DNA from: Kribbella sp. VKM Ac-2568
GTDB taxonomy: Bacteria > Actinomycetota > Actinomycetes > Propionibacteriales > Kribbellaceae
NCBI RefSeq assembly: GCF_004345365.1
Contig: NZ_SLVF01000014.1
Location: 186,001-250,000, forward strand
Direction: 5' to 3'
Length of the DNA: 64,000 nt
The notes beneath the pieces were generated by a model. It worked only from the letters and a program-made list of their open reading frames with translations, was not told where the DNA came from and searched no databases. Of the stretch, positions 40,649 through 53,503 are shown piece after piece. How positions within the stretch are numbered: position 1 is the stretch's first letter; each line of letters begins with the position of its first letter. Both the position numbers and the translations under genes were made by a program.

Positions 40649-42346
40649 TCACTGCATCAGGTCCGGGATCTCGTGGGCGAGGAGCCGACCACGGTCACCG
40701 GCGGCCAGCGCCTGGACGCGACCGGTGGCCCGCCGCGCGTCAGCCTTGCCTGCCGATTCTGTACCGGTCGCAGCCAGCGGTACTGCGGACTGCGGGTCCG
40801 CGGGGCGGCGATGATGCCAGTCGGTCAGCGCCTGGTACGCCGCGGCGACGGCGAGCAGGCGATCCTCCCCGAAGGGCTTCCCGCCGAGAATCGTCCCGAT
40901 CGGCACACCCTTGGCGGTGAAACCGATCGGCAGAGCGAGCTCGGGCAGACCGATCGCGTCGAACGGGTTGGGACTGGTCTGGACCACGACGTCGCACTGC
41001 TCGAACAGGTCGTCCAGAACGCGCTGCAGCAGAAGCACCTTTGCTCGCTGACCGATCAGGTATTCGTCGGCGCCGAGCAACGCGCCCTGCAGCCAACCTG
41101 TCACCGACACGCCGAATCCCCGGAGATCCGACCGCAGCATCGGCAGGAAGGGTTCGCTCCGCTCGGGCAACCTGACGTTGTTGAACGCTGCGTTGGTGAG
41201 GACGTCCCACTCGTCGGGCATCGTCACGTCGACCAACTGCAGGTCTTCCACCTCGGCGAGCTTGCTCAGTGCGGCCCGGCGCGCGGCGGCAGTCTCCGAA
41301 GTACCCGTGGTGAAGCCCGGGATCACGCCGACCCTGGTACGCCAGCGCACCCGCACCTTGCGACCCCGCAGTACGGGTGTGGCCGCGGTGATCAGGTCGG
41401 GGACGGGTGGGAGGCCCTGTGTGCGCGGGTCGTTCGGGTCCTCGCCGGCCATCGCGGTGAGCATGATCGCCGCGTCCTTGGCATCCCGGGCGAGCGGTCC
41501 TGGGTGGTCGCGCGTGTAGCTGAGCGGCACGATGCCGTAGAGGGACACGCGGCCCATCGTCGGCTTGAGGCCGGTCAGGTTCTGCGCATTGGACGGCGCG
41601 ATGATCGAGCCGCCCGTCTGCGTTCCGACGGCGGAGGTCGCCATCCGGGACGCGACCGCAGTGGCCGATCCGGACGAGGAACCGCCCGGGTCGGTGGACG
41701 GGTCCGCGGGCGTCCACGCGTTGACGGTGGTGATCCTGCCGTCCGGCGTTGTGGCCCTCGTCGTGGCCAGTGGACCCATCTGGGTCTTGCCGAGGACGAT
41801 GCCGCCCGCACCCGTCAGGCGCCGTACTGCGGTCGCGTCGAAGGGTGGCTCGAACTTCTCGAAGAGGTACGAGTTCGCCGTGGTCGGGATGCCGCGAGTG
41901 TAGTAGTTGTCCTTGATCGCGAGCGGGATGCCGTGCAGCTCGCCACCGCGGGTGCGGCCGAGCGAACGGGCGCGGGCGAGGGCCTCGTCAGCGAGGACCA
42001 GGTTGAACGCCTGGTACGTCGCGTCGAAGGCGCCGATCCGGTCGAGGTAGGCCTCCAGGAGGCGCTCAGGACGAAGCTTGCCGCTGCGGATCAGCGTGGC
42101 GGCCTCGGCGATCGTGAGTTCGGTGACGTCGGCGATCGCCTCGGGGCGGACCGGGACGTCCGGGGTGGTGGTCGATTGGAGGTTGCCCTGCGGTCCTGCG
42201 TACGCGACGGCGGGCAGGGCGACCGTGCCGACCGTCGCGGCTGCGGCGAGGGCGCCGACGCGATGGATGAAGGAACGACGGTCGACTCGGGTGTCCATCG
42301 GCTCGTCGGCCGTGGTGACGACCACGTGGTTCAGCGGGGCGGTCAC
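40649..42346 (-). CDS. Tat-exported amidase
   Basis: 565 residues. A twin-arginine signal (DRRSFIHRVGALAAAATVG, AYA cleavage) is followed by an amidase-signature domain with Lys in GIPLAIKDN, cis-Ser in DPGGSSSG and Ser in TQTGGSIIAPS. GTG 42346 overlaps the upstream stop (GTGA), implying coupled translation; ATG 42298 would also keep the signal. It acts outside the membrane, folded before export, on an unknown amide. Confidence 0.92.
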   Translation of the reverse strand: MTAPLNHVVVTTADEPMDTRVDRRSFIHRVGALAAAATVGTVALPAVAYAGPQGNLQSTTTPDVPVRPEAIADVTELTIAEAATLIRSGKLRPERLLEAYLDRIGAFDATYQAFNLVLADEALARARSLGRTRGGELHGIPLAIKDNYYTRGIPTTANSYLFEKFEPPFDATAVRRLTGAGGIVLGKTQMGPLATTRATTPDGRITTVNAWTPADPSTDPGGSSSGSATAVASRMATSAVGTQTGGSIIAPSNAQNLTGLKPTMGRVSLYGIVPLSYTRDHPGPLARDAKDAAIMLTAMAGEDPNDPRTQGLPPVPDLITAATPVLRGRKVRVRWRTRVGVIPGFTTGTSETAAARRAALSKLAEVEDLQLVDVTMPDEWDVLTNAAFNNVRLPERSEPFLPMLRSDLRGFGVSVTGWLQGALLGADEYLIGQRAKVLLLQRVLDDLFEQCDVVVQTSPNPFDAIGLPELALPIGFTAKGVPIGTILGGKPFGEDRLLAVAAAYQALTDWHHRRPADPQSAVPLAATGTESAGKADARRATGRVQALAAGDRGRLLAHEIPDLMQ

Positions 42347-42642
42347 CGGGACTGCCTCATGATGTCGATGGACGGGAAGAGGGCGGGCGGGGACACCTGC
42401 TGCGCGAGGGCGGCGCGGTCACTATCCGGACCGGCGGCCGCGAACTGGTAGGCGGCAAGCGGGACGATCGTCGTACGGACGAAACTGCGGAGGCCGGCCA
42501 GCGCGGTGTCGCGCCCGGGGCTGCCGGTTTCGGGGTCGGGCTCGGTACCGGCAGGGAGTTGGTCGAGATCGATGCCGATCGCGGCAAGCCGGGCGCGAAT
42601 CATCACGTCCAGCTCGGCATCTGAGGGTGGGGTGAGGCTCAC
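42343..42642 (-). CDS. Small protein coupled to the Tat amidase
   Basis: 99 residues from GTG 42642, with GAGGAG upstream. Helical, acidic start (SLTPPSDAELDVMIRARLAA) and a middle RDTALAGLRSFVRTT; no signal peptide or membrane helix. Its stop overlaps the amidase start, so it may be a cytoplasmic partner or chaperone for the exported enzyme. No family named. Confidence 0.7.
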   Translation of the reverse strand: MSLTPPSDAELDVMIRARLAAIGIDLDQLPAGTEPDPETGSPGRDTALAGLRSFVRTTIVPLAAYQFAAAGPDSDRAALAQQVSPPALFPSIDIMRQSR

Positions 42643-42910
42643 TCGTGCTCCTCGAGGTCTGCGGCGGAAAGACTGCAGACCTGTTATGTCACGACATGTA
42701 TGTCCCCACATTTCACTGATGTCGCAGCAAAGTTAACTCCCCACCCACGCGCCGACCGACGGTGACTTCATCTCGGTCGACCGAGGCGGAGGGTCGGTGG
42801 AATCGGCAGCGAGCCCGACCCTGCGTATCGCGGCGCCTTCGAGCGCAGCCGGCGTGGCCGCGGGCGGTGTCCGGGCCAGGGGGGCGGGACCTCGGGGGCG
42901 GTGGTTCGGG

Positions 42911-45463
42911 TTAGTGGGTGGGGAGGTTGGCTCGGGTGTCTGGGGTTAGCGGGGTTAGGAGGTCGGGGGCGGCTGTGAGGGTGAGGTTGGTCGGGTCCAG
43001 GAGGTGGGGGTGGAGGGCGTAGACCTCGGCGCCGGCTTTGGGGTCGATGTCGCCGGTGATGACGGCGATGAAGTCGGCGCGGTTGGCTGCGTCGAGGTCC
43101 CAGTAGCGGTCGGGTTCGAGGCGGGCGGTGAGGCGGCGAGCGAAGTCGGGGAGCTCCTCGGAATCGCCGCGGAGGTATCCGACCACCGAGCCGTCGGCGC
43201 AGCGGACGACCACCTCGTCCGTCCGGGCCGCCGCGTGCCAGCAGCACACTTCCCACAGGCTCACCCGGTCGCCGGCACCGTGTACCTCCTCGATCGTCGC
43301 CGCCATCAGTGCGACCTGCGGCGCGTACCGCGCGATGCCGTGCCCGTACCCTGCGGCGCTGAGGTTCACGTCGTACCAGCGGAGTTCCTTGGTATGCAGG
43401 TCGACGCCGAACGGCAGCAGGATCTTGGCCGGCCCGGTCAGGTCGAACCGGTCCTCCACCGCGGCAGGGTCGAACAGCCCGGACGGCTGCCGCATGATTC
43501 CTATCAAGCCGCGCTCGAGCTCGCTGAACGACACGTCGTTGTAGCTGAAGACCACCGGCAGCACGTGGCGCCCGCCCACCCGGCGCAACGCGACCAGGTC
43601 GAGGTCGACGAACTCCGTCGATCCCTGCGGCCCGGGCGCCGACGTGAGGTTGCCCGAGTGCACCAACGCGTCCTGGTCGAACCTGAGCCGCGTGTAGTCG
43701 CACAGCCCGAGAAACGCCCACTCCTCGTCGAACACCGCGACCGAGAGGTCCAGGTCGACTCGCCGCCCGGCCGGCTCCACCCAGTGCACGAACAGCCGCA
43801 ACAACTCGTCCTGCGAGATCGGCGCCGCACTACCCCGCGTCATCCGCAGCAACGTGGACGACGCGCTCCGCCCAGAAGCAGGCGCAGCCAGCCGCGCCAA
43901 CTCCTCGTCCAGGAACGCCCGCCGTACCCGCGGCAAGGAAGTTGCCCGACGCAACAACTCACCGACCAGTACTGCGGCCAGCGATGCGGCGAGTTCCGCA
44001 GGCAGCGGTTCGCGATCATCCACGGAGGTCCAGATCCGGGTCGTTCCGCCGCGCGGGAAGAACAGCCGGAGGTCACCCGGCGGCGTTCGGACCTGGCCGA
44101 GTGCGGCGGTCAACACGAAAGGCGACACGTCCGAGACAGCCGTAGCGACTGCCTCCACCAGTGAGCCGTGCGCGTCCACCGGCAGTGCACGAGCGAGCTG
44201 GACCAGTCGGCGGACCATCTCCCCCGGCCGCGTCCGCAACAGATTCAACGCGAGATCGGCCCGCTCGGCCGCGAACGCCCCCTCGACCCGACTGGCGAAG
44301 GTGTTCATCCTCAGCCGTCCACCTTCGAGCCGGACGACGGGATGCTTTGCCGCCTCGCTGAGGACCGCGCGACCGGTCGGGCTCGTGGCATCCAGGGTGG
44401 TTCCGCGCAGCACGGCGAAGGCGAGGGCGGCGACCGGATAGCGGTCGGCGAACTCGAAGGGATGCAGGTTCTCCCCGACGCGTTTCCAGGCGCGGTGATG
44501 GCGCAGCATGTCCTCGACGAGTTGCTCCACCGGCATTCGGTCGAGCCGCGCAAGCACGGTCCGGCGAATCCCCCGCGCCAACGACTGGCGCCGTACAGGT
44601 GGGTTGCGAAGACCGGGATCAGCGCCCATCAGCGCATAGAGGAGTCGCAACGCATCGGTCGCGGTCTCGACGAGCTCGTCAACCAACGAGGGGAACCGCG
44701 GCATCAACAGCGCGAGCACCAGCGCACGCGTCTCCCGGACCGGGATCGTGTCCGACAGCCAGGACGGGTCGGCTTCGGACAAGAGCACCCGGAGGTCAGC
44801 ACGGTCGCCGGCCGACAGCGGCGTCCGACGAGCGAGAAGTTCGGAGGCTGTCGTCCGATCGGCATCGGCCGGCGCCAGGGTCAGCAGTCGGAGACGATCG
44901 GCACGACCCGGAGTGGTCACCTCGTCGAAGGACGGCTCGAGGAACGGATCGTCCGGATCGAGGTGCCGCAGACAGATCGGGCACGCGCTGAAGTCGGCTC
45001 CGTCCCAGCACGAGCGACAGACCAGGTGTGCGCAGGGCGATACCGGCTGGACCGTCTCCACCTCACCACACAGCACACAGGGCTGCTCGGGCTCCTGCAG
45101 CAGCCGCGCAAAGACTCTGTCGATGTAGAAGGTCTCTGTGTTGCCCGGCACGCTCTCGGGGAAGCCCCGGAACAGCGGTACGTGATCGGCCGCGGCGCCC
45201 GACTCTGCGTCGAGCACGTCCAGCAGTTCACGACCGAACCCGGTCAACGCGAAGGCGTTCAGTCCGGCGCAGTGCCGGTAGACAGTCGCCGAGAGCAGGA
45301 AGCCACGCTGGATCAGCTCGGCCTGCAACGCGGCCAGCCCCGCCTGCGTCGTGAGTGGATGCCGCAGCCACTGCCACGCGGACCGGCGTACGGGTGGGGT
45401 GAGACGGGCGGCGTCGACCAGTCGACGGCGGCGCAGCAGGACCGCCGCTAGTGCGTCAGGCAT
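42911..45463 (-). CDS. RING-finger protein with TerD-like C-terminal domain (MXAN_6230/SCO0854 type)
   Basis: 850 residues from ATG 45463 (GGGGAGGG site). A full C3HC4 RING pattern lies at C129-x2-C132-x11-C144-x-H146-x2-C149-x2-C152-x8-C161-x2-C164. The long middle is helical. Towards the C-terminus a TerD-like beta domain appears: VDLDLSVAVFDEEWAFLGLC, HSGNLTSAPGPQG, EFVDLDLVALRR and PVVFSYNDVSF. Related proteins are known in Myxococcus and Streptomyces; RING fingers are rare in bacteria. The open frame extends upstream with Cys/Pro-rich translation I reject. Probable stress-response scaffold or protein-modifier; activity not shown. Confidence 0.87.
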   Translation of the reverse strand: MPDALAAVLLRRRRLVDAARLTPPVRRSAWQWLRHPLTTQAGLAALQAELIQRGFLLSATVYRHCAGLNAFALTGFGRELLDVLDAESGAAADHVPLFRGFPESVPGNTETFYIDRVFARLLQEPEQPCVLCGEVETVQPVSPCAHLVCRSCWDGADFSACPICLRHLDPDDPFLEPSFDEVTTPGRADRLRLLTLAPADADRTTASELLARRTPLSAGDRADLRVLLSEADPSWLSDTIPVRETRALVLALLMPRFPSLVDELVETATDALRLLYALMGADPGLRNPPVRRQSLARGIRRTVLARLDRMPVEQLVEDMLRHHRAWKRVGENLHPFEFADRYPVAALAFAVLRGTTLDATSPTGRAVLSEAAKHPVVRLEGGRLRMNTFASRVEGAFAAERADLALNLLRTRPGEMVRRLVQLARALPVDAHGSLVEAVATAVSDVSPFVLTAALGQVRTPPGDLRLFFPRGGTTRIWTSVDDREPLPAELAASLAAVLVGELLRRATSLPRVRRAFLDEELARLAAPASGRSASSTLLRMTRGSAAPISQDELLRLFVHWVEPAGRRVDLDLSVAVFDEEWAFLGLCDYTRLRFDQDALVHSGNLTSAPGPQGSTEFVDLDLVALRRVGGRHVLPVVFSYNDVSFSELERGLIGIMRQPSGLFDPAAVEDRFDLTGPAKILLPFGVDLHTKELRWYDVNLSAAGYGHGIARYAPQVALMAATIEEVHGAGDRVSLWEVCCWHAAARTDEVVVRCADGSVVGYLRGDSEELPDFARRLTARLEPDRYWDLDAANRADFIAVITGDIDPKAGAEVYALHPHLLDPTNLTLTAAPDLLTPLTPDTRANLPTH

Positions 45464-46000
45464 CGACCCTCCCCGCGAACATCGGCAACAGGAACAGCAG
45501 TGGGAACCACAGCAGGGACACAGGTGCCAGGGGCGGAGAGCGAACGCGCTACATGCCTGGTGAAGGAGAAGGAAGCACGTCCAAGAGCCGTCCCTGGCAA
45601 GAAGAACGCTACTGGGCTCCACCGACAGTTTCGGAGCCGCTCTGACGCTGGTCCGAGAGCCTGTCTGGAGGCCTGTCCTGAAGCGGCGCGACGGCCGCGG
45701 GTCCGCAGAAGGGACCGGACAAAGAAGAGGTCCAGTACCAGGGTCGGGGCCGCCCCGCCCAGACCCCGGTACCAGACGACTCCAGAGTAGAGCCGCCGGA
45801 CAAGTCCTGCGCCATCGGGCCACCCCAGTTGGCACTTATTTGCCGCCAACAAACCCTTGAATGAGTGGACCAGTGAGCACCGCTGGATCAGACCACTGGC
45901 GTGGGTTCCATCACATCGGCCGCCAGGCCCAGTCGCAGGGAAACCCTCATTGTCACGCGTGGCAGGTGTCGAGCCACGGATAGTGGTTAAGGTCTCCGGC
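45464..46000. other. Divergent intergenic region, no gene seen
   Basis: 537 bp between the RING gene and the MFS gene. Open frames exist on both strands but with improbable composition. A GC-rich imperfect inverted repeat occurs near 45740-45765. Promoters of both flanking genes must lie here; I cannot place them. Confidence 0.4.
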
Positions 46001-47245
46001 ATGGTTGGTGGGGTGGTGGAACGGGCGCGCTGGCGTGACGTGTTCGGACATGCCGAGTTCAGGGCGTTGTTCCTGGCCGGCATCCTGTCCGTCGCAGGGG
46101 ATCAGCTGGCCCGGGTGGCACTCTCCGTGTTGGTGTTCGAACGCACCGAATCCGCCGGGCTCACCGCGCTCACCTACGCCCTGACCTACGTGCCGGATCT
46201 GCTCTTCGGCCCTTTGCTGGCAGGGATCGCCGACCGGTATCCGCGGCGCCGTGTGATGATCATCACCGACCTGGCGCGCGCAGTACTGGTGGCCGCGATG
46301 GCGATCGAGGCGTTGCCGCTGATCGTCGTGATCCTGCTGCTGATCGCGCTGCAGGCCTTCGGCTCGCCGTTCAACGCGGCACGCGCCGCGACGCTGCCAG
46401 TGGTGCTGCCAGGCGACCACTACGTGCTGGGTAAGGCCGCGAACGACATGGTCGTGCAGTTCAGCCAGGTGCTGGGCTTCGGCACCGGCGGCCTTGCAGT
46501 GGTCGCAGTGGGGACGTCGGGAGGCCTACTGCTCGACTCCGGGACCTTCCTGCTGTCCGCACTGCTCATCGCTTTCGGAGTGCACGCTCGCCCGGCCCCT
46601 GCCAAGCAGGTCGACGAGCCGCGACGCAGCTACTTCGCAGACATGGCCGCAGGCGCCTCACTGGTCATCCGTACTCCGAGCCTGCGCGCGCTGATCGCTC
46701 TGGCGACCATCGCCGGGTTCTACGTCACGGTGGAGGGCCTCGCCGTCCCCTACGCCAACGAGATCGGCGGCGGTCCGAAAGCAGCGGGACTCCTGCTGGC
46801 CGCGAGCCCGGCTGGGGCGGTCGTCGGCATGTGGCTGATCACGCTGTGGCCTCCTGAGCGGCGGATGCGCCTGCTCGGGCCGCTCGCGGTCGCCGCCTGC
46901 GTCCCACTCGTGTTCTGCGCGTTCAGACCCGGACTGGTGCCGACACTTGTGCTCTGGGCGCTCTCAGGGATGGCTTCGGCCTACCATCTGCCGACCAGTG
47001 CCGCTTTCGTCCAAGCAGTACCGGACCACCAGCGGGGCCAGGCGTTCGGAGTCGCTAGTACGGCTCTGAAGGGCAGCCAGGGCCTCGGAATCCTGCTGGC
47101 CGGCCTGATCGCCGACAGGACCTCGCCATCGCTGGCACTGGCTGTGGTGGGTGCCGCGGGAGTGCTCGCGGCCCTTGTGGCGGGCACTGCCTGGGCCCGT
47201 GCCCGCCAGGGCTCGGTCGGAACCGCGGAAACAGTTACGGAATGA
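46001..47245 (+). CDS. Major facilitator superfamily transporter
   Basis: 414 residues from ATG 46001 with about twelve hydrophobic segments, the loop ADRYPRRRVMIITD between helices 2 and 3 (MFS signature A) and VVLPGDHYVLGKAANDM typical of the MFS_3/enterobactin-exporter-like branch. Probably a proton-driven drug or metabolite exporter. The longer in-frame start at 45857 adds a non-membrane, low-probability segment and is rejected. Confidence 0.9.
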   Translation: MVGGVVERARWRDVFGHAEFRALFLAGILSVAGDQLARVALSVLVFERTESAGLTALTYALTYVPDLLFGPLLAGIADRYPRRRVMIITDLARAVLVAAMAIEALPLIVVILLLIALQAFGSPFNAARAATLPVVLPGDHYVLGKAANDMVVQFSQVLGFGTGGLAVVAVGTSGGLLLDSGTFLLSALLIAFGVHARPAPAKQVDEPRRSYFADMAAGASLVIRTPSLRALIALATIAGFYVTVEGLAVPYANEIGGGPKAAGLLLAASPAGAVVGMWLITLWPPERRMRLLGPLAVAACVPLVFCAFRPGLVPTLVLWALSGMASAYHLPTSAAFVQAVPDHQRGQAFGVASTALKGSQGLGILLAGLIADRTSPSLALAVVGAAGVLAALVAGTAWARARQGSVGTAETVTE

Positions 47246-47324
47246 GCGGCCGGAGACTCAGGGAAATATCGCCGGACGCCGTCCGTAAAATGTGAGTAAA
47301 GAATTTTTCGGACTCAGCGGCGGT

Positions 47325-47478
47325 TCACCACTCGTTACCACCGGTGAACCACTCGTTACCGGGCCCGCCGGCCAGCCGGAACCACTCGTTGCCACCGCCG
47401 GTGAACCACTCGTTCCCGCCTCGGAACCACTCGTTTCCGCCGGTGAACCACTCGTTGCCGCCGCGGAACCACTCGTTG
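47325..47478. repeat. Tandem 21-bp-based DNA repeats encoding NEWF units
   Basis: On the plus strand the core AACCACTCGTT recurs at intervals of 21 bp, with one 24-bp and one 33-bp step, and varying third-codon positions. It is the coding repeat of the peptide above and not a CRISPR array. Confidence 0.85.
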
Positions 47479-47498
47479 CCGTTGCTCTTCTTGGTCAT
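47325..47498 (-). CDS. 57-residue NEWF(R/T)GG repeat peptide
   Basis: ATG 47498 with GAGAGGA ten bases upstream. After MTKKSNG the product is built of N-E-W-F-(R or T)-G-G units: seven NEW, six NEWF, with Arg and Thr alternating, one longer spacer (RLAGGPG) after the fifth, ending NEW-stop. Repeated Gly codons vary (GGC, GGA, GGG, GGT) and Arg uses CGC, CGA and CGG while the residues stay fixed, so selection acts on the peptide. No signal peptide, cysteine or membrane helix. No maturation enzyme lies next to it. Candidates: multi-core modified peptide precursor, or a self-associating aromatic repeat. Function unknown. Confidence 0.7.
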   Translation of the reverse strand: MTKKSNGNEWFRGGNEWFTGGNEWFRGGNEWFTGGGNEWFRLAGGPGNEWFTGGNEW

Positions 47499-47619
47499 GG
47501 TCTTGGATCCTCTCGTTGCCAACCGTCTGATGGAATACCTGCGCCTCGGGGATGACCTCACGTGAACAGGCAGTTACTATTCAGCAATAACCGTTCAGGT
47601 CTATCTGTGTGAGGCCACC

Positions 47620-48960
47620 ATGATTCTGATCGGTCGGAGCAAGTGGGTGCCACCCCGCCGATGGAAGCTCTGGTCGTTACCGCGTCCTGCGCTGAGCTAC
47701 GTGCTCGGTGTGGAAGCGGTCGCTGTCACGATCACCGCCCTCGCTGTGGCATTTACGCTCTCCGGCGACCATCCGGGGGTCAGGCCGTCCGAGTGGGCTG
47801 CCTTCGCCGTGCTGGCGGTCGCTTCTGTCCTCCATCTGGAGTCTGCCCGCGGAATCGAGCGGCGACGCGAGATGGCGGCGAACACTTCGCCGTACACGAA
47901 CCTGAAGAGCCTCTGGGTCTTCGCCGGGCTGCTGCTGCTCCCGCTGTCACTGGTGATCGCGCTGGTGGTCGTCTCGTACAGCTATTCCTGGATCCGTGTC
48001 TACGGGCGAACCATCGCGCACCGCAAGGTCTTCTCCGCGAGCACGTTCATCCTCGCCAGCGCCGGCGCGGCCGCCGTACTGCGGGGCGGTGGTCTGCTCA
48101 CCGAACCGCGCGTGCCGACGAGCGCCTGGACCCTGCTGGTCGTGGTCGCCGCGGCGTCCACCTGGTGGCTGCTGAATTTCGCGCTGGTGATCGGCGCGAT
48201 CCTGCTCTCCTCCCCGGACGCGTCCGCTCGCGGGGCGCTCGGGAACCTCTCCGAGCAGCTCGTGGTGGTGGCCGGGCTCGGTCTCGGCGTTGCCGTCGCC
48301 GGCCTGCAGGCGTCGTACCCCTGGATCGTGCCGATCCTGATGGTGACGGTGCTGACGCTGCACCGCGACCTGCTGCTGCCGCAGTTCCAGCGCGCCGCCG
48401 GGACCGACGTGAAGACCGGCCTCGCGACCCCGTCGTACTGGGCCAGCGCGGTGCCGGTGGAGCTCGCCCGGGCCGAGACGCTGCGCAGTACGGTCGGGCT
48501 GCTGATGCTCGACCTGGACCGGTTCAAGGAGATCAACGACACCTACGGCCACCCGGCCGGCGACCGCGCGCTGCGGGCAGTCGGCGAGAGTGTGCGGGCC
48601 GAGGTGCGGCAGGGTGACATCGTCGCCCGGGTCGGCGGCGACGAGCTTGCCGTGCTGCTGCCCGGCGCCTCCGAGACCGAGGTGCTCGAGATCGCCGAGC
48701 GGATCCGCGAGCGGCTCACCACGCTGACCGTCTCGGTCGACACCGTGTCGAATGCCAGCGCGGTCATCACCGGCGTACCGGCCTCGTTCGGGGCAGCGGT
48801 CTACCCAGCGGTCGCCGGGACGATGGACCAGTTGGTGCTCGCCGCGGACAACGCCCTGCTGACGGCGAAGCGGGCCGGCCGGAACAAGATCGTCTCCGCC
48901 CGCCCGAACCCTCCGATCGTCGGCGATCTCTCGGAGAGCCCGACCCCCGACGCCGCCTGA
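47620..48960 (+). CDS. Membrane diguanylate cyclase, GGDEL active site
   Basis: 446 residues. About seven membrane segments in the first 245 residues, then a GGDEF domain: LMLDLDRFKEINDTYGHPAGD, and ARVGGDEL at 336-343 with GGDEL in place of GGDEF. A product-inhibition I-site RxxD (RQGD) stands five residues before it. Phe-to-Leu at the last position is uncommon but can retain activity in this family. It would make cyclic di-GMP in response to a membrane signal. Divergent from the NEWF peptide gene across 121 bp. Confidence 0.9.
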   Translation: MILIGRSKWVPPRRWKLWSLPRPALSYVLGVEAVAVTITALAVAFTLSGDHPGVRPSEWAAFAVLAVASVLHLESARGIERRREMAANTSPYTNLKSLWVFAGLLLLPLSLVIALVVVSYSYSWIRVYGRTIAHRKVFSASTFILASAGAAAVLRGGGLLTEPRVPTSAWTLLVVVAAASTWWLLNFALVIGAILLSSPDASARGALGNLSEQLVVVAGLGLGVAVAGLQASYPWIVPILMVTVLTLHRDLLLPQFQRAAGTDVKTGLATPSYWASAVPVELARAETLRSTVGLLMLDLDRFKEINDTYGHPAGDRALRAVGESVRAEVRQGDIVARVGGDELAVLLPGASETEVLEIAERIRERLTTLTVSVDTVSNASAVITGVPASFGAAVYPAVAGTMDQLVLAADNALLTAKRAGRNKIVSARPNPPIVGDLSESPTPDAA

Positions 48961-49042
48961 TCCACGGCCCGCCTGATCCACTGCCCGGCCTGATCCACTG
49001 CTCGACGGCTGTCGCCGCCTGCGGCTGGCCGTCACCCACACG

Positions 49043-49070
49043 CCGCCGCCGCCGGCTCCAGCGGCGGCGG
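49043..49070. terminator. GC hairpin between converging genes
   Basis: CCGCCGCCGC, an 8-base loop, GCGGCGGCGG. It lies between the ends of the cyclase gene and the convergent gene at 49078, a good place for a bidirectional terminator. No T-tract. Confidence 0.5.
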
Positions 49071-49077
49071 TCGTCAG

Positions 49078-49431
49078 TCAGGCGTGGTCGCCGTCGAGCA
49101 GCTTGTGGAGCTCCACGATCGCGTTCTTGATGTCGTCGTAGTCCTGCTGGGCCGCCCGTGACTCCGCGCTGATCACGCCGCAGCGATGCACCCGGCGGAA
49201 GTCGCCGTACGGGAACTTGTACCGGCCCTTGGTCTCCTCCCCCAGCTCGTCGTCGACGCCGAGATACCACTGGGAGTACTCGTGCCAGCCGTGTTTCTCG
49301 AGGTACTCGTTCTCCTGCTCCGCGGTCGGCGCGTGCTCGCTCCAGTCGTCCCGCTCGTCCTTGCGGGTCTGCCCCTTCGAGATCAGATCCTTGGCGTGCT
49401 CGAAGGCATCCTTGTTCAGAGTGACGCTCAT
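49078..49431 (-). CDS. Conserved hypothetical protein
   Basis: 117 residues from ATG 49431 with GAGGAGGAGCG upstream. Charged, aromatic-rich sequence (HGWHEYSQWYLGVDDELGEE, YKFPYGDFRRVHRCG) conserved as a unit in actinobacteria as far as I recall. No catalytic motif that I can name. Soluble. Confidence 0.78.
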   Translation of the reverse strand: MSVTLNKDAFEHAKDLISKGQTRKDERDDWSEHAPTAEQENEYLEKHGWHEYSQWYLGVDDELGEETKGRYKFPYGDFRRVHRCGVISAESRAAQQDYDDIKNAIVELHKLLDGDHA

Positions 49432-49474
49432 CGCTCCTCCTCAGGGTCGCGTCACCGGTGCCCCCGAGCCGGCA

Positions 49475-50449
49475 TCAGCTAACCCTGATCAGAGCCTTGC
49501 CGAGCAGCGAGCGGTTCTCGATCGCGGCGTGTGCCTTGCCGAGTTCGTCGAGGGAGAAGGTCCGGTCGATCACCGGCACCAGGTCGACGCGCAGCACCCG
49601 CTCCAGCACGTCCACTCCGCTGATAACCACGCTCGTCGTGTCCGCGCGGAGGTCCCTGATGCCCTTCACCGTGATGCCCCGGCGCTCTGCCTCGGCTTCG
49701 TCGTACTCCGCGAAGCCGCCGCTGGGGGCACCGTGCGCGGAGAACCAGCCGCCGTCCTTCACCGTACTGAACGCGGCCGCTCCGAGCTTGCCGCCTGCCC
49801 CTTCGAAGACGACGTCCGCGCCGTCGCCGTTGATTGCCTCGAGCACCGATTTCTCCCAGCCGGGCTCGGAGTAGTCGATCACCACGTCGGCGCCCTGGGC
49901 CTTGACCAGATCGAGCTTGGCCTGGCCGCGAGCGGCGCCGATCACATGCGCGCCGGCCTTGTGCGCCAGTTGCACGAGCAGTACGCCCATGCCCCCGGCC
50001 GCTGCGGTAATCAGGACCTCCTTGCCCTGCAGATCGGGGGCCAACTGCTCGAGCAACAACGCGGTGAAGCCGTCGCCGAAGGCCGCGACCGCCGTCTCCA
50101 GGTTGAGCTCGTCAGGCACGGTGAGCAGAGAGTCCACGGGGACGACCGCCTGCTCGGCGTGCGCCCCGAAACCGGCCGTCCGGCCGATCACTGTCTTGCC
50201 GATCCAGCTGTCATCCACGCCGTCACCGACTGTGCGGACCTGCCCGCCGAGAGAGTTCCCGGGGACATACGGCGGCGTCACATCGAAGAACCCGCCGTGC
50301 TGCCCGTGCCGGATCGCGGTCTCCACGAAGATCAGGTCGGTCACCTGAACGTCGACGACGACCTCCCCCGGACCAGCAACCGGCTCCGGCCAGTCCATCG
50401 TGCGAACCACCTCCGGGCCTCCGAACTCCGTCACTACCGCTGCCCGCAT
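49475..50449 (-). CDS. Quinone oxidoreductase-type zinc-independent alcohol dehydrogenase
   Basis: 324 residues from ATG 50449. MDR superfamily: MRAAVVTEFGGPEVVRTMDW, GNSLGGQVRTVGDGVD and the NADPH fold GKEVLITAAAGGMGVLLVQL. Structural zinc cysteines are absent, as in quinone oxidoreductases. It reduces quinones or enones with NADPH. It is divergent from the helicase gene. Confidence 0.92.
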   Translation of the reverse strand: MRAAVVTEFGGPEVVRTMDWPEPVAGPGEVVVDVQVTDLIFVETAIRHGQHGGFFDVTPPYVPGNSLGGQVRTVGDGVDDSWIGKTVIGRTAGFGAHAEQAVVPVDSLLTVPDELNLETAVAAFGDGFTALLLEQLAPDLQGKEVLITAAAGGMGVLLVQLAHKAGAHVIGAARGQAKLDLVKAQGADVVIDYSEPGWEKSVLEAINGDGADVVFEGAGGKLGAAAFSTVKDGGWFSAHGAPSGGFAEYDEAEAERRGITVKGIRDLRADTTSVVISGVDVLERVLRVDLVPVIDRTFSLDELGKAHAAIENRSLLGKALIRVS

Positions 50450-50587
50450 CTGGACCACTCCATCCGTCGCTGTTCTGTGGACAAGAGCCTGCAACCTCAA
50501 CTTGAGTTCAGGTCAAGCCCCGGGTTGTCCACAGGCGAGCGTGAGGGGTGCGGAAAGCTGTCGGTACTTCGGCGTAATCTGCCGTGC

Positions 50588-53503
50588 ATGTTCGACGCCG
50601 TCTTCCTGCCAGCCGACCCGCCACGCGCGGGCCGGCTGGCCCTGTACGGCGACCTGGCGGCGGCCGGGGTGGTCCCGGACAGCAAGGTGGAACTGGTCCT
50701 CCCCCGCGGCGATCAGGTGCGGCGGACGAAGGTCGCGGCGCGGTTGTTGCCGGTCGAGGAGGCGCTCGCGCTCTTGACCCGGCCGCCCTCCCCGGACGAT
50801 TCGGCGAGTCATCGGGCCTGGGCAGCCGCGGCACTCGCCGGGGTCGGGTTGATCGCCCGTGGACGGCTCGTGCCGGATCGAACCCCCAGCGGGTACGGCG
50901 CCTGGCGGGTGGCGCCGCTGGATCCGACCGATCACGGCTGGCTGAAGAACCTCGGTGCGGCGATGCCCGCGCACGGTCACGCCGTACCGGTCGAGGGGTC
51001 GCGGCCGCTTCGGCTGGCTGGGCCGGAGCAACTCGTCCGGGCGTTCTGGGATGCGCTCGCGGACACGTTGGTGCGGACACCGGCGGCAGGCGTCGCAGTA
51101 CGGGGTAGTGCGGCCGCGTTTGCTGAGGTGGAGCCTCGGGAGCTCACTGGGTCCACCGCCTGGTTGGACGAGACTGCTTTGAGCGAGGAGGCAGGTGCGC
51201 GGCTGGTACTGCGGATCGAGCCGCCTGAGGATGACTCGGAGTTCAAGGCGGTCCTGCAGTTGCGCAGCGGGGTGGACCCGAGCCTGCTGGTGGATGTCGC
51301 TGACGTGTGGAACGCGCCGGCCGCAGTACTGGCTGCTCTTGGGGAGCGAGCCGAGACGGATCTGCTGCTCGCCTTGCGGCGTGGGGCGCGGGTCTGGCCG
51401 CCGCTTGGTGCGGCGCTTCGAGATGCGGCGCCGGCCGAGGTACCGGTGGACGATGTGGCGCTGGACGAGCTTGCCGGGGACAGCGATGCGCTGGAAGGCG
51501 CCGGGATCGAAGTGTTGTGGCCGGCTGAATTGTTCGCCGGTGAGTTGGCGTTGCGCGGTGCGGTTCAGGCGACGCCGACGCCCGGCGCGGTGACCGGGCC
51601 GGACTTCAACCTGACGGATCTGCTGGCCTTCAAGTGGCGACCGACGCTCGACGGCCAGGAGTTGACGGAGGCGGAGATCGCCGCGCTGGCGGAGGCGAAG
51701 CGGCCGATGATCCGGATGCGCGGGCGATGGGTGCGGATCGACCAGGACCTGGTGCGGAAGTTGCGGCGCGGTGGATCGCGGAAGCTGACCGGCGCGGAGG
51801 CGCTGGGTGCCGCGTTGACCGGTTCGCTGGAGGTCGACGGTGAGCTCGTCGCCTTCGATGCGGACGGCTCGCTGCTGACGATGGTTGATCGATTGCGGGC
51901 CGCTTCTGAGCCCGAGCCCTTCGCGGAGCAGCCGGTGGGGTTGCGGGCGACGCTGCGGGATTATCAACGCCGGGGTGTGGCGTGGATGGCGCAACTGGCG
52001 GAGCTCGGGTTCGGTGGGTGCCTCGCGGACGACATGGGGCTGGGCAAGACGATCCAGGTGATCGCGCTGCATCTCCACCTGTCGCGGCGTGGTCGCGGAC
52101 CGACATTGGTGGTGTGTCCGTCGACGCTGCTCGGGACCTGGGAGCGCGAGCTGGAGAAGTTCGCGCCGGGCGTGCCGACTCGGCGATATCACGGTGCCGG
52201 GCGTTCGCTGAGCGATCTCGCCGCGGACGAGGTGGTGCTGACGACCTATGGCGTGGTGCGGCAGGATCACCGGGTGCTCGGCGAGATCTTCTGGGGTCTG
52301 GCAGTGGCTGACGAGGCGCAGCATGCGAAGAATCCCTTGTCCAGAACGGCTCGGGCGCTGCGGACGTTGCCTGCGGCAACCAGGCTTGCGTTGACCGGGA
52401 CGCCGGTGGAGAACCGGTTGTCCGAGCTGTGGTCGATCCTCGACTGGGCCGCCCCGGGATTGCTTGGCACGCTGGATCGCTTCCGCCACGACGTCGCAGT
52501 ACCGGTCGAGCGGTATCACGATGAGGAGGCGACCGCGCGGCTTGCGCGAGTGACCCGGCCGTTCCTGTTGCGGCGGCGCAAGAGCGACCCGGGGATCGCG
52601 CCGGAGTTGCCGCAGAAGTCGGAGCACGACGTGGTCGTACCGCTGACCGCCGAGCAGGCCACGCTGTATCAGGCGGTCGCGCGGGAGACCCTCGCCAAGA
52701 TCGAGTCGGCGGAGGGGATCGCGCGGCGCGGGCTGGTGCTGAGTCTGCTGACGCAGTTGAAGCAGGTGTGCAACCACCCGGCCCAGTTCCTGCACGAGCC
52801 CGGGCCGCTGCCACGGCGCTCGGGGAAGCTCGCCGCCCTGGACGAGTTGCTCGACGTGATCCTGGCCGAGGGCGAGTCGGTGCTGATCTTCAGCCAGTAC
52901 GTCGAGATGTGCCGGCTGATCGAGTCTCATCTGGCGGCTCGGCAGGTGCGGACGTTGTTCCTGCACGGTGGGATCGGCGTGCGCAAGCGGGAGCAACTGG
53001 TCGAGCAGTTCCAGGCGGGCGAGGCGCAGGTGTTCCTGCTGTCGCTGAAGGCGGGCGGTGTCGGGCTGACGCTGACGAAGGCGACCCACGTCGTGCACTA
53101 CGACCGCTGGTGGAACCCGGCCGTCGAGGACCAGGCGACCGACCGGGCGTACCGGATCGGCCAGGACAAGCCGGTCCAGGTGCACCGACTGGTCACCGAG
53201 AACACCTTGGAAGACCGGATCTCCACGGTCATCGCCGCCAAGCGAGAACTGGCTGATGCTGTTGTCGGTTCCGGCGAAGCCTGGCTGAGCGAACTCTCCG
53301 ATGCCGACCTCACCGAACTGGTCGAACTCTCCACGACGCCGGCCAAATCCGGAGCGGCGAGCGCCTACAACCCTTCGTCTGTAGGTAAATCCACCGGTGT
53401 CGTAGACCAGGCTGCTGCTGTGGGCGTCGCTGACCGGTCGGGTTCTGTGCGGGTCGTTGGGCCGTCGACTGATGTTGACGATGGCGGTGAGCTGGATGAA
53501 TGA
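50588..53503 (+). CDS. SNF2-family DNA translocase/helicase
   Basis: 971 residues from ATG 50588; the frame is open far upstream but there it covers the opposite gene, so it is not used. An N-terminal SNF2-associated domain (about 1-440) precedes the motor: LADDMGLGKTIQ (Walker A near 480), DEAQHAKN, LTGTPVENRLSELWSILD, and in lobe 2 SLKAGGVGLTLTKA and DRWWNPAVEDQATDRAYRIG. It moves along double-stranded DNA using ATP. The next gene, a SWIM protein, overlaps it, a common actinobacterial pairing. Confidence 0.95.
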   Translation: MFDAVFLPADPPRAGRLALYGDLAAAGVVPDSKVELVLPRGDQVRRTKVAARLLPVEEALALLTRPPSPDDSASHRAWAAAALAGVGLIARGRLVPDRTPSGYGAWRVAPLDPTDHGWLKNLGAAMPAHGHAVPVEGSRPLRLAGPEQLVRAFWDALADTLVRTPAAGVAVRGSAAAFAEVEPRELTGSTAWLDETALSEEAGARLVLRIEPPEDDSEFKAVLQLRSGVDPSLLVDVADVWNAPAAVLAALGERAETDLLLALRRGARVWPPLGAALRDAAPAEVPVDDVALDELAGDSDALEGAGIEVLWPAELFAGELALRGAVQATPTPGAVTGPDFNLTDLLAFKWRPTLDGQELTEAEIAALAEAKRPMIRMRGRWVRIDQDLVRKLRRGGSRKLTGAEALGAALTGSLEVDGELVAFDADGSLLTMVDRLRAASEPEPFAEQPVGLRATLRDYQRRGVAWMAQLAELGFGGCLADDMGLGKTIQVIALHLHLSRRGRGPTLVVCPSTLLGTWERELEKFAPGVPTRRYHGAGRSLSDLAADEVVLTTYGVVRQDHRVLGEIFWGLAVADEAQHAKNPLSRTARALRTLPAATRLALTGTPVENRLSELWSILDWAAPGLLGTLDRFRHDVAVPVERYHDEEATARLARVTRPFLLRRRKSDPGIAPELPQKSEHDVVVPLTAEQATLYQAVARETLAKIESAEGIARRGLVLSLLTQLKQVCNHPAQFLHEPGPLPRRSGKLAALDELLDVILAEGESVLIFSQYVEMCRLIESHLAARQVRTLFLHGGIGVRKREQLVEQFQAGEAQVFLLSLKAGGVGLTLTKATHVVHYDRWWNPAVEDQATDRAYRIGQDKPVQVHRLVTENTLEDRISTVIAAKRELADAVVGSGEAWLSELSDADLTELVELSTTPAKSGAASAYNPSSVGKSTGVVDQAAAVGVADRSGSVRVVGPSTDVDDGGELDE

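Follow-up and report, generated by a model that had tools for sequence, protein, structure and literature searches.

The window, by which we mean the whole 64,000-nucleotide stretch of Kribbella DNA analysed here, encodes a 57-residue Trp-containing repeat peptide that, as judged from sequence, is a real conserved gene product and one of the three parts of an actinobacterial cassette whose other members are a membrane diguanylate cyclase (DGC) and a transporter. The peptide most likely acts as the DGC's own peptide signal. We give a probability of about 0.6 to the reading in which the Trp peptide would be the ligand, the MFS transporter its exporter, and the membrane DGC the receptor that sets c-di-GMP synthesis. 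The case is built on the ORFs themselves, selection on their amino acids, the triad architecture, the co-retention of peptide and MFS genes, and the co-segregation of peptide type with the membrane half of the DGC.

In the proposed mechanism, the core of the peptide would be approximately N-[D/E]-W at the Kribbella locus and typically M-R-x-x-x-W-x elsewhere. In related cassettes the peptide would be coded directly by ORFs of 5–9 codons, single or in tandem; at the window locus, GN[D/E]W[F/L] copies would be joined in one ORF by Gly-rich linkers and would need trimming. The MFS protein most likely exports the peptide, and the DGC would most likely bind it through its N-terminal multi-helix domain, which would thereby set c-di-GMP synthesis. 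We infer both that the ORFs are translated and that the action is extracellular (pheromone-like) rather than intracellular.

Results

The repeat peptide is conserved in Kribbella

The ORF lies on the minus strand at 47325–47498, with its ATG at 47498 and a Shine-Dalgarno-like GAGAGGA (47508–47514, minus strand) 9 nt 5′ of the ATG; an AGG-type sequence at this position is retained in the upstream alignment of relatives. The product, MTKKSNGNEWFRGGNEWFTGGNEWFRGGNEWFTGGGNEWFRLAGGPGNEWFTGGNEW, ends exactly in GNEW-stop. A sequence-only reading of this DNA had described a 57-residue product with seven NEW units, a seven-residue leader, a 7-residue period, and an Arg/Thr alternation giving a 14-residue super-period. 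The product, its seven units and the leader count were confirmed. The 7-residue period holds for most units, but spacings of 8 and 11 also occur (consecutive NEW spacings 7, 7, 7, 8, 11, 7). Likewise, the residue after F does alternate (R, T, R, T, R, T) in the window ORF, but the 14-residue super-period is not conserved, because this position is variable among relatives (R/H/T/Q/N/A/S and others). At the DNA level the array has periods of 21 and 42 (TRF). No described family with this repeat had been known to that reading, and none was found here in Pfam, among the papers listed by literature searches, or in NCBIfam, where nothing meaningful and a single chance match (E = 0.34) were returned for the 57-aa peptide. 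A TCTT(T/A)AC ... TTA(C) motif lies 3′ of the peptide stop (window 47280–47312); it is recognisable in the 36-locus alignment and present also at loci without the MFS gene.

Homologues of the repeat, for which a search had been proposed, were found in 37 of the 38 genomes of the genus (E ≤ 0.01). Full-length copies with 6–8 N[DE]W units are present in 31/38 and short copies of 2–3 units in 5/38, the weak matches within the genus being short or broken copies; G047 carries a remnant without an in-frame start, apparently frameshifted. The sole genome without a match, G051, has no peptide at its locus. At E ≤ 0.001, a search of 391 genomes from the order gave peptide matches in this genus only. 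A search of 396 genomes of the phylum returned, besides the window's own, one weak match (E = 5e-4, G244/L090), which was rejected as a homologue: its locus is without any stop-free stretch holding two or more such motifs. A contig titled Streptomyces sp. SID13031 (NZ_JAAGLV010000001.1, L032) carries the Kribbella locus and is probably misnamed.

Selection on the amino acids, read earlier from synonymous changes between repeats, is also seen among relatives, with dN/dS (NG86) of 0.29 among 15 NEW sequences, 0.28 among 16 NDW sequences, and 0.30 among 5 short sequences. The synonymous signal comes mostly from Gly, Glu/Asp, Arg and Thr codons, because Asn is nearly always AAC and Trp has one codon. 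Every gene is all-NEW or all-NDW, with no mixing among the 36 peptides read (L072, with no peptide, and L075, a remnant without an in-frame start, were left out of peptide counts). In L076 the residue before N is Ser in each of the six units, and in L077 it is Thr in each of the six; their next relative, L078, has Gly. The linkers are unlike between units yet largely position-conserved. Such switching of the whole motif with differing linkers suggests one trans-acting partner that would read [G/S/T]-N-[D/E]-W; alternatively, it could come from gene conversion. Main-locus peptides end in N[D/E]W-stop, with GDDW as the end in L034. The second unit has decayed to SSKR/SNKR forms in L028–L030, where the remaining units are intact, and one unit of L027 reads NES.

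The peptide gene lies between a DGC gene and an MFS gene and is retained with the latter

The peptide gene is divergent from the gene for a c-di-GMP cyclase (the DGC, 47620–48960, plus strand), as stated in the earlier reading, and convergent with the gene for an MFS transporter identified by profile matches (TIGR00900/MFS_3 kind, a putative exporter; 45857–47245, plus strand), whose start is uncertain, the TIGR00900 match beginning near 46058. A conserved gene next to homologues had been suggested as something to look for; relatives preserve the gene order QOR–DGC (divergent)–peptide–MFS (convergent)–RING. The observation that no usual RiPP maturase adjoins the peptide gene also stood, the neighbours encoding the MFS protein, the DGC, RING, a quinone-reductase-like protein and a 117-aa product that was not recognised. 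The intergenic region common to the divergent peptide and DGC genes (47499–47619) is in parts strongly conserved in the 36-locus alignment and contains an AGTAAC-N16-GTCA core at 47578–47553 (minus strand). A PHO-box assignment for the upstream GTTCAC/GGTCAC was dropped, the spacing being 10 by eye, and Rfam gave nothing up to E 1 across window 42000–52000. Between the RING and MFS genes, a block at window 45513–45642 is 82–93% identical over 107–120 bp and forms a separate BLAST piece in 22/37 loci; in other loci it lies inside longer BLAST pieces, and it is present in G051, which is without the MFS and peptide genes. This block is possibly a regulatory RNA or the 5′ leader of the RING gene.

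An MFS orthologue (77–100% identity, every other match being ≤56%) is present in 30/38 genomes. The full-length peptide is found in 30/30 genomes with the MFS gene versus 1/8 without it (Fisher p = 6e-7, uncorrected for ancestry). The eight MFS-lacking genomes comprise five with 2–3-unit peptides (one clade), one with a remnant, one with none, and one, G049, that retains a full peptide of 7 units. The DGC is retained with a short, broken or absent peptide in seven genomes. On a DGC+RING tree there are four changes of MFS state; the peptide agrees in three independent pairs and one pair shows no difference, so that the tree sign test gives p = 0.25 and cannot reach significance. For G051, which branches deepest, the absence may be the ancestral state.

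Paralogous cassettes contain single micro-ORFs in place of the repeat peptide

A search with a membrane-domain profile returned 25 strong paralogous DGC matches in Kribbella, all of which were read (a weak partial match, G003:C30, was left out). An MFS paralogue adjoins the DGC in the window's arrangement at 24/25 of these loci. In all 25 gaps, an ORF of 5–8 codons is found behind a strong Shine-Dalgarno sequence, at the same place and on the same strand as the window's repeat peptide; none was found on the other strand (0/25) or in 200 rounds of dinucleotide shuffling (0). The encoded micropeptides include MQNNDW, MRNNDWH, MRNNDWP, MRNGEWH, MRNNEW, MHNEWP, MNNDW, MRNNNDWG, MRANDWF, MRTNDWP and MRNNDWT, and the N[D/E]W-stop end of the fused peptides matches those ending in NNDW or NNEW. 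At L110 the gap was shortened by the MFS match in the strict scan, which counted 0; the micro-ORF is present in the paralogue-gap scan. An inverted repeat, GTGACAT ... ATGTCAC, lies 5′ of the micro-ORF in L108 and L121, with similar half-sites in several paralogue loci, and is a candidate operator.

Tandem micro-ORF arrays occur in a second actinobacterial family

A class-level search of 296 genomes gave 43 with the membrane domain, among them the window's own; they represent 22 genera. The loci read were L136–L164, 19 more, and the window genome's second; the other matches were mostly partial or weak. In family f94 (possibly Micromonosporaceae), the MFS gene lies upstream in 16/18 loci and in 9/12 further loci. 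Among the first 18 loci, 14 have 2–11 micro-ORFs, two have one, and L136 and L142 have none by the strict pattern; L142 contains a fused pair, MRDTNWVLRDTNWSW, four times. Ten of the 12 further loci have 1–5 micro-ORFs, and L187 and L189 have none. The f94 peptides are MRDNTWT (up to 8 copies), MRDTTWS (up to 10), MRDNNWN (8), MRANSWD, MRGNSWD and others.

Each ORF of an array has its own ribosome site, and neighbouring units are mostly spaced 63–79 nt, a few steps being wider. The ORF copies of one array show identities of 0.88–1.00, above both flanks in 16/16 arrays; both flanks are at 0.22–0.45 in 7/16, and in L141, L190, L186, L151 and L138 the flanks also resemble one another, the pattern of a recent duplication. 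The same peptide is encoded by synonymous DNA forms, six for MRGNSWD and five for MRDNTWT. Over 883 strand-kb (the window plus 20 neighbourhoods, 13 from f94 and 7 from Kribbella, chosen by the analyst and not at random), 70/71 pattern matches fall in the stretch divergent from the DGC. Trp constancy in the strict scans is by construction, since the pattern demands TGG; a scan without the TGG requirement showed the same arrays.

Other families have single or double ORFs (MRSVQWA, MSSTQWG, MRDVHWG, MRHTSWS). A strict micro-ORF is present in 59 of 80 further sensor-DGC loci and absent from 21/80; two of the 59 have atypical single peptides, possibly by chance (L202, MAKKIVHWL; L162, MLRGVTWT). 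No Trp micro-ORF was found at L122, L123 and L125 by the scans run, or at L124, L126 and L127 by the strict pattern, and L185 (G000:C3:609500-618500), the window genome's second sensor-DGC, has neither an MFS gene nor a strict micro-ORF nearby. Of the 67 distinct peptide-per-locus entries, 45 are 7 aa long; W is mostly followed by T, D, H or S or else is the last residue, and N follows it in 4/67.

A membrane-domain tree kept 61 of the 80 loci (19 that scored under 120 or were short were left out). It contains a well separated clade of 55, made up of 51 strict micro-ORF loci, the fused L142, and L136, L187 and L189 with none; the six rows outside this clade are all without a micro-ORF. Clades of the tree mostly correspond to peptide sequence, MRDNTWT in L139 and MRNNDWH in L105 being exceptions. 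Several genomes have two cassettes whose peptides differ, as do G878 and G912 with MRDNTWT and MRGNSWD. In a comparison of 21 chosen neighbourhoods, each up to 19 kb long, the MFS and DGC clusters were shared by 20 and every other cluster by at most 10, so the cassette appears self-contained. The window ORF looks like a fused multi-copy micropeptide, because the triad recurs with single and tandem micro-ORFs; the earlier picture of an isolated leader-plus-repeat peptide gives way to a recurring MFS/Trp-peptide/membrane-DGC triad.

The DGC has a membrane domain with a predicted S-component-like fold

The window DGC (446 aa) consists of an N-terminal multi-TM domain and a GGDEF domain (Pfam GGDEF, E = 2e-36) with GGDEL and RQGD five residues upstream. 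R330, D333 and GGDEL are invariant across 32 aligned DGC proteins. At the 80 further loci GGEEF is found in 69 and RxxD at that spacing in 68, the remainder having given an off-motif match. The GGDEF active site and I-site motifs of a diguanylate cyclase are thus present by sequence.

The N-terminal membrane domain (residues 1–255; 47620–48384, plus strand) is the putative receptor domain. An earlier AF2 model of the full DGC was poor in the membrane part, and a deeper sensor alignment was used instead; the domain modelled alone from 32 sequences gave pLDDT 81.4 and pTM 0.82. The nine best VIA rows for this model are all ECF transporter S components (Z 8.9–13.4, including RibU 13.4, NikM 12.9 and ThiT 9.3; next row 6.8), with the limits that sequence identity in them is 4–16%, that helical bundles in general can reach a Z near 13, and that the comparison is confined to the VIA list. 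Foldseek returned ThiT with prob 0.96 but E 0.33, and no match at E ≤ 0.001. As modelled, the membrane domain may resemble ECF S components. S components are ligand-binding membrane proteins, and because they bind ligands the likeness would fit a receptor role. ECF modules (EcfT and ATPases) can be encoded elsewhere.

Peptide type co-segregates with the membrane half of the DGC

We compared the NEW/NDW type of the peptide with the trees of the neighbouring genes. The DGC tree needs one NEW/NDW change, versus four each for RING, QOR and helicase and three for MFS; the DGC catalytic domain alone needs two (DNA) or three (protein). Residues that fully separate the two types number 17 in the DGC, 0 in RING, QOR and helicase, and one, near the C-terminus, in MFS (L072 and L075 excluded). 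All 17 DGC residues lie within 30–239 and none in the catalytic domain. In 60-codon DNA windows of the DGC (34 loci; L022, L085, L075 and L072 left out), one change suffices for each window up to residue 240 and for 211–270, and the windows past 211–270 need 3, 3, 5, 3 and 2. The mean r2 of type versus amino acids in 20-codon bins is 0.16–0.63 in the DGC membrane half and 0.13–0.30 in most of the catalytic half, compared with 0.05–0.17 for QOR, RING and helicase and for MFS as far as codon 289, and 0.23–0.38 at the MFS end. Third positions in DGC 121–200 are near background (0.09–0.14), a result that saturation could produce; single residues there are still fully type-separating.

The last 88 MFS codons also need only one NEW/NDW change. 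The tracts extend into the MFS 3′ end in two of the three cases mapped, and the L080/L082 tract spans nearly the whole DGC. Since the tracts reach beyond the DGC, physical linkage is a live null for the co-segregation, which it could have caused. Peptide and putative receptor sensor domain co-vary by type, as in pherotype systems, with linkage as one possible cause.

Discussion

The reading we favour, peptide as ligand, MFS as exporter and DGC as receptor, carries a wider proposal, to which as a whole we give slightly below an even chance. It would be a new kind of bacterial peptide signalling, in which leaderless Trp micropeptides of 5–9 residues, made directly from micro-ORFs (up to 11 in tandem) with no maturation step, would be exported by a dedicated MFS protein and sensed by an S-component-like DGC receptor that feeds c-di-GMP; it would also cover several peptide/receptor types per genome, exchange of types between species, and the fused version in Kribbella. 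The fused peptide has no hydrophobic signal stretch, and no known processing site or protease was found for it. In the literature covered (mostly open-access), none of the papers listed described these peptides or such a peptide-sensing DGC. If the reading is true, the DGC would be a direct peptide-to-c-di-GMP receptor, and the peptides would belong to a gene class of 5–9 codons, found also in tandem arrays, that is normally out of reach of annotation pipelines. c-di-GMP governs development in filamentous actinobacteria; these cassettes would make it testable which signals feed it there, and would provide naturally occurring pairs of peptide and receptor that differ in type inside a single genome.

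Several other explanations have to be weighed against the ligand–exporter–receptor reading. The peptide might be an intracellular ligand that meets the DGC on its cytoplasmic side, multivalently when it is a repeat, with the MFS protein exporting other cargo or clearing the peptide. The lack of a hydrophobic stretch (across 36 peptides, hydropathy over 12 residues peaks at 0.78), the stronger tracking of DGC than of MFS by peptide type, and the peptide that G049 keeps without an MFS gene are all consistent with this; the co-retention with MFS and the adjacency of MFS in the paralogous and second-family cassettes argue against it, and we regard it as unlikely. An antibiotic-like exported micropeptide akin to microcin C, for which MFS would provide export or self-protection and the DGC would be only a regulator, is suggested by ORFs of seven codons that start with MR and have an MFS neighbour, but we think it distinctly improbable. 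No third gene recurs widely, so that no common MccB-like enzyme was seen (21 neighbourhoods, clustering without a ThiF profile), and Asn follows Trp in only 4/67 entries. Moreover, one locus is present in nearly all genomes of the genus, unlike a patchy antibiotic, and the tracking of peptide type by the DGC membrane half would be left without a reason.

The latter objection applies equally to the idea that the peptide is an output of c-di-GMP signalling, a sticky or self-assembling material whose production the DGC governs. The Trp/Phe/Gly repeats and the common divergent intergenic region are what it would lead one to expect, but relatives of 5–9 residues cannot form such material by within-chain repetition, and we give it a very slim chance. 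Nothing was found in support of the cross-linking, stacking or self-assembly of Trp/Phe units that the sequence-only reading had raised. Somewhat less remote, yet still quite improbable, is a multi-core RiPP precursor whose N-x-W(F) units would be cross-linked by an enzyme encoded elsewhere and exported by MFS. A nearly invariant N-[DE]-W between variable Gly-rich linkers fits such a precursor, as does the sharing of D or E by the intact copies of a gene (and of Ser or Thr before N in L076/L077), as with one trans-acting partner. Against it, no RiPP enzyme was recognised beside the window peptide, no third gene is common to the cassettes, and the relatives encoded by micro-ORFs are too short to include a leader; a trans-acting RRE was rejected, a PqqD-type recognition domain being present in 13/38 genomes and absent from the window's. 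Finally, arrays of Shine-Dalgarno sequences and short ORFs could act on ribosomes as an RNA or DNA element and not through a peptide. This has hardly any probability left in our estimate, given that the same peptide persists in synonymous variants (six forms of MRGNSWD, five of MRDNTWT) and that dN/dS is ~0.29 in the fused form. An attenuator in particular was rejected where MFS is present: the next downstream gene is not on the same strand, because the array meets the convergent MFS 3′ end.

Among known systems, ECF S components (RibU, ThiT, NikM/CbiM) may resemble the DGC membrane domain in its predicted fold and are unlike it in that the latter is fused to GGDEF. Yeast alpha-factor type precursors hold multi-copy short pheromone peptides with spacers in one chain. 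The Kribbella peptide is similarly built of several copies of one short peptide with spacers, but it is bacterial, and neither a hydrophobic signal for secretion nor a known processing site was found in it. The microcin C cluster carries an MFS-type exporter. Like MccA, the cassette peptides elsewhere are encoded by an independent 7-codon ORF, often with an MR start and a strong Shine-Dalgarno sequence, the window's own form being 57 aa; unlike MccA, they do not keep a C-terminal Asn, occur in tandem arrays, have a DGC partner, and include a fused multi-copy form. In comQXPA systems, peptide type tracks the N-terminal half of comP. By analogy with comQXPA and agr, the peptide type of the present cassettes would track the sensor half of the candidate receptor and not its catalytic half; they differ in that the DGC is not a histidine kinase, there is no ComQ, and the peptides of 5–9 residues are coded directly or in tandem. 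Polymorphism clusters of comQXP have been reported (PMC4408185), and microcin C precursors are described as 7-aa peptides made by reiterative translation (PMC6495379). By analogy, then, the closest known system would be microcin C in gene size and pherotype systems such as comQXPA in evolutionary pattern.
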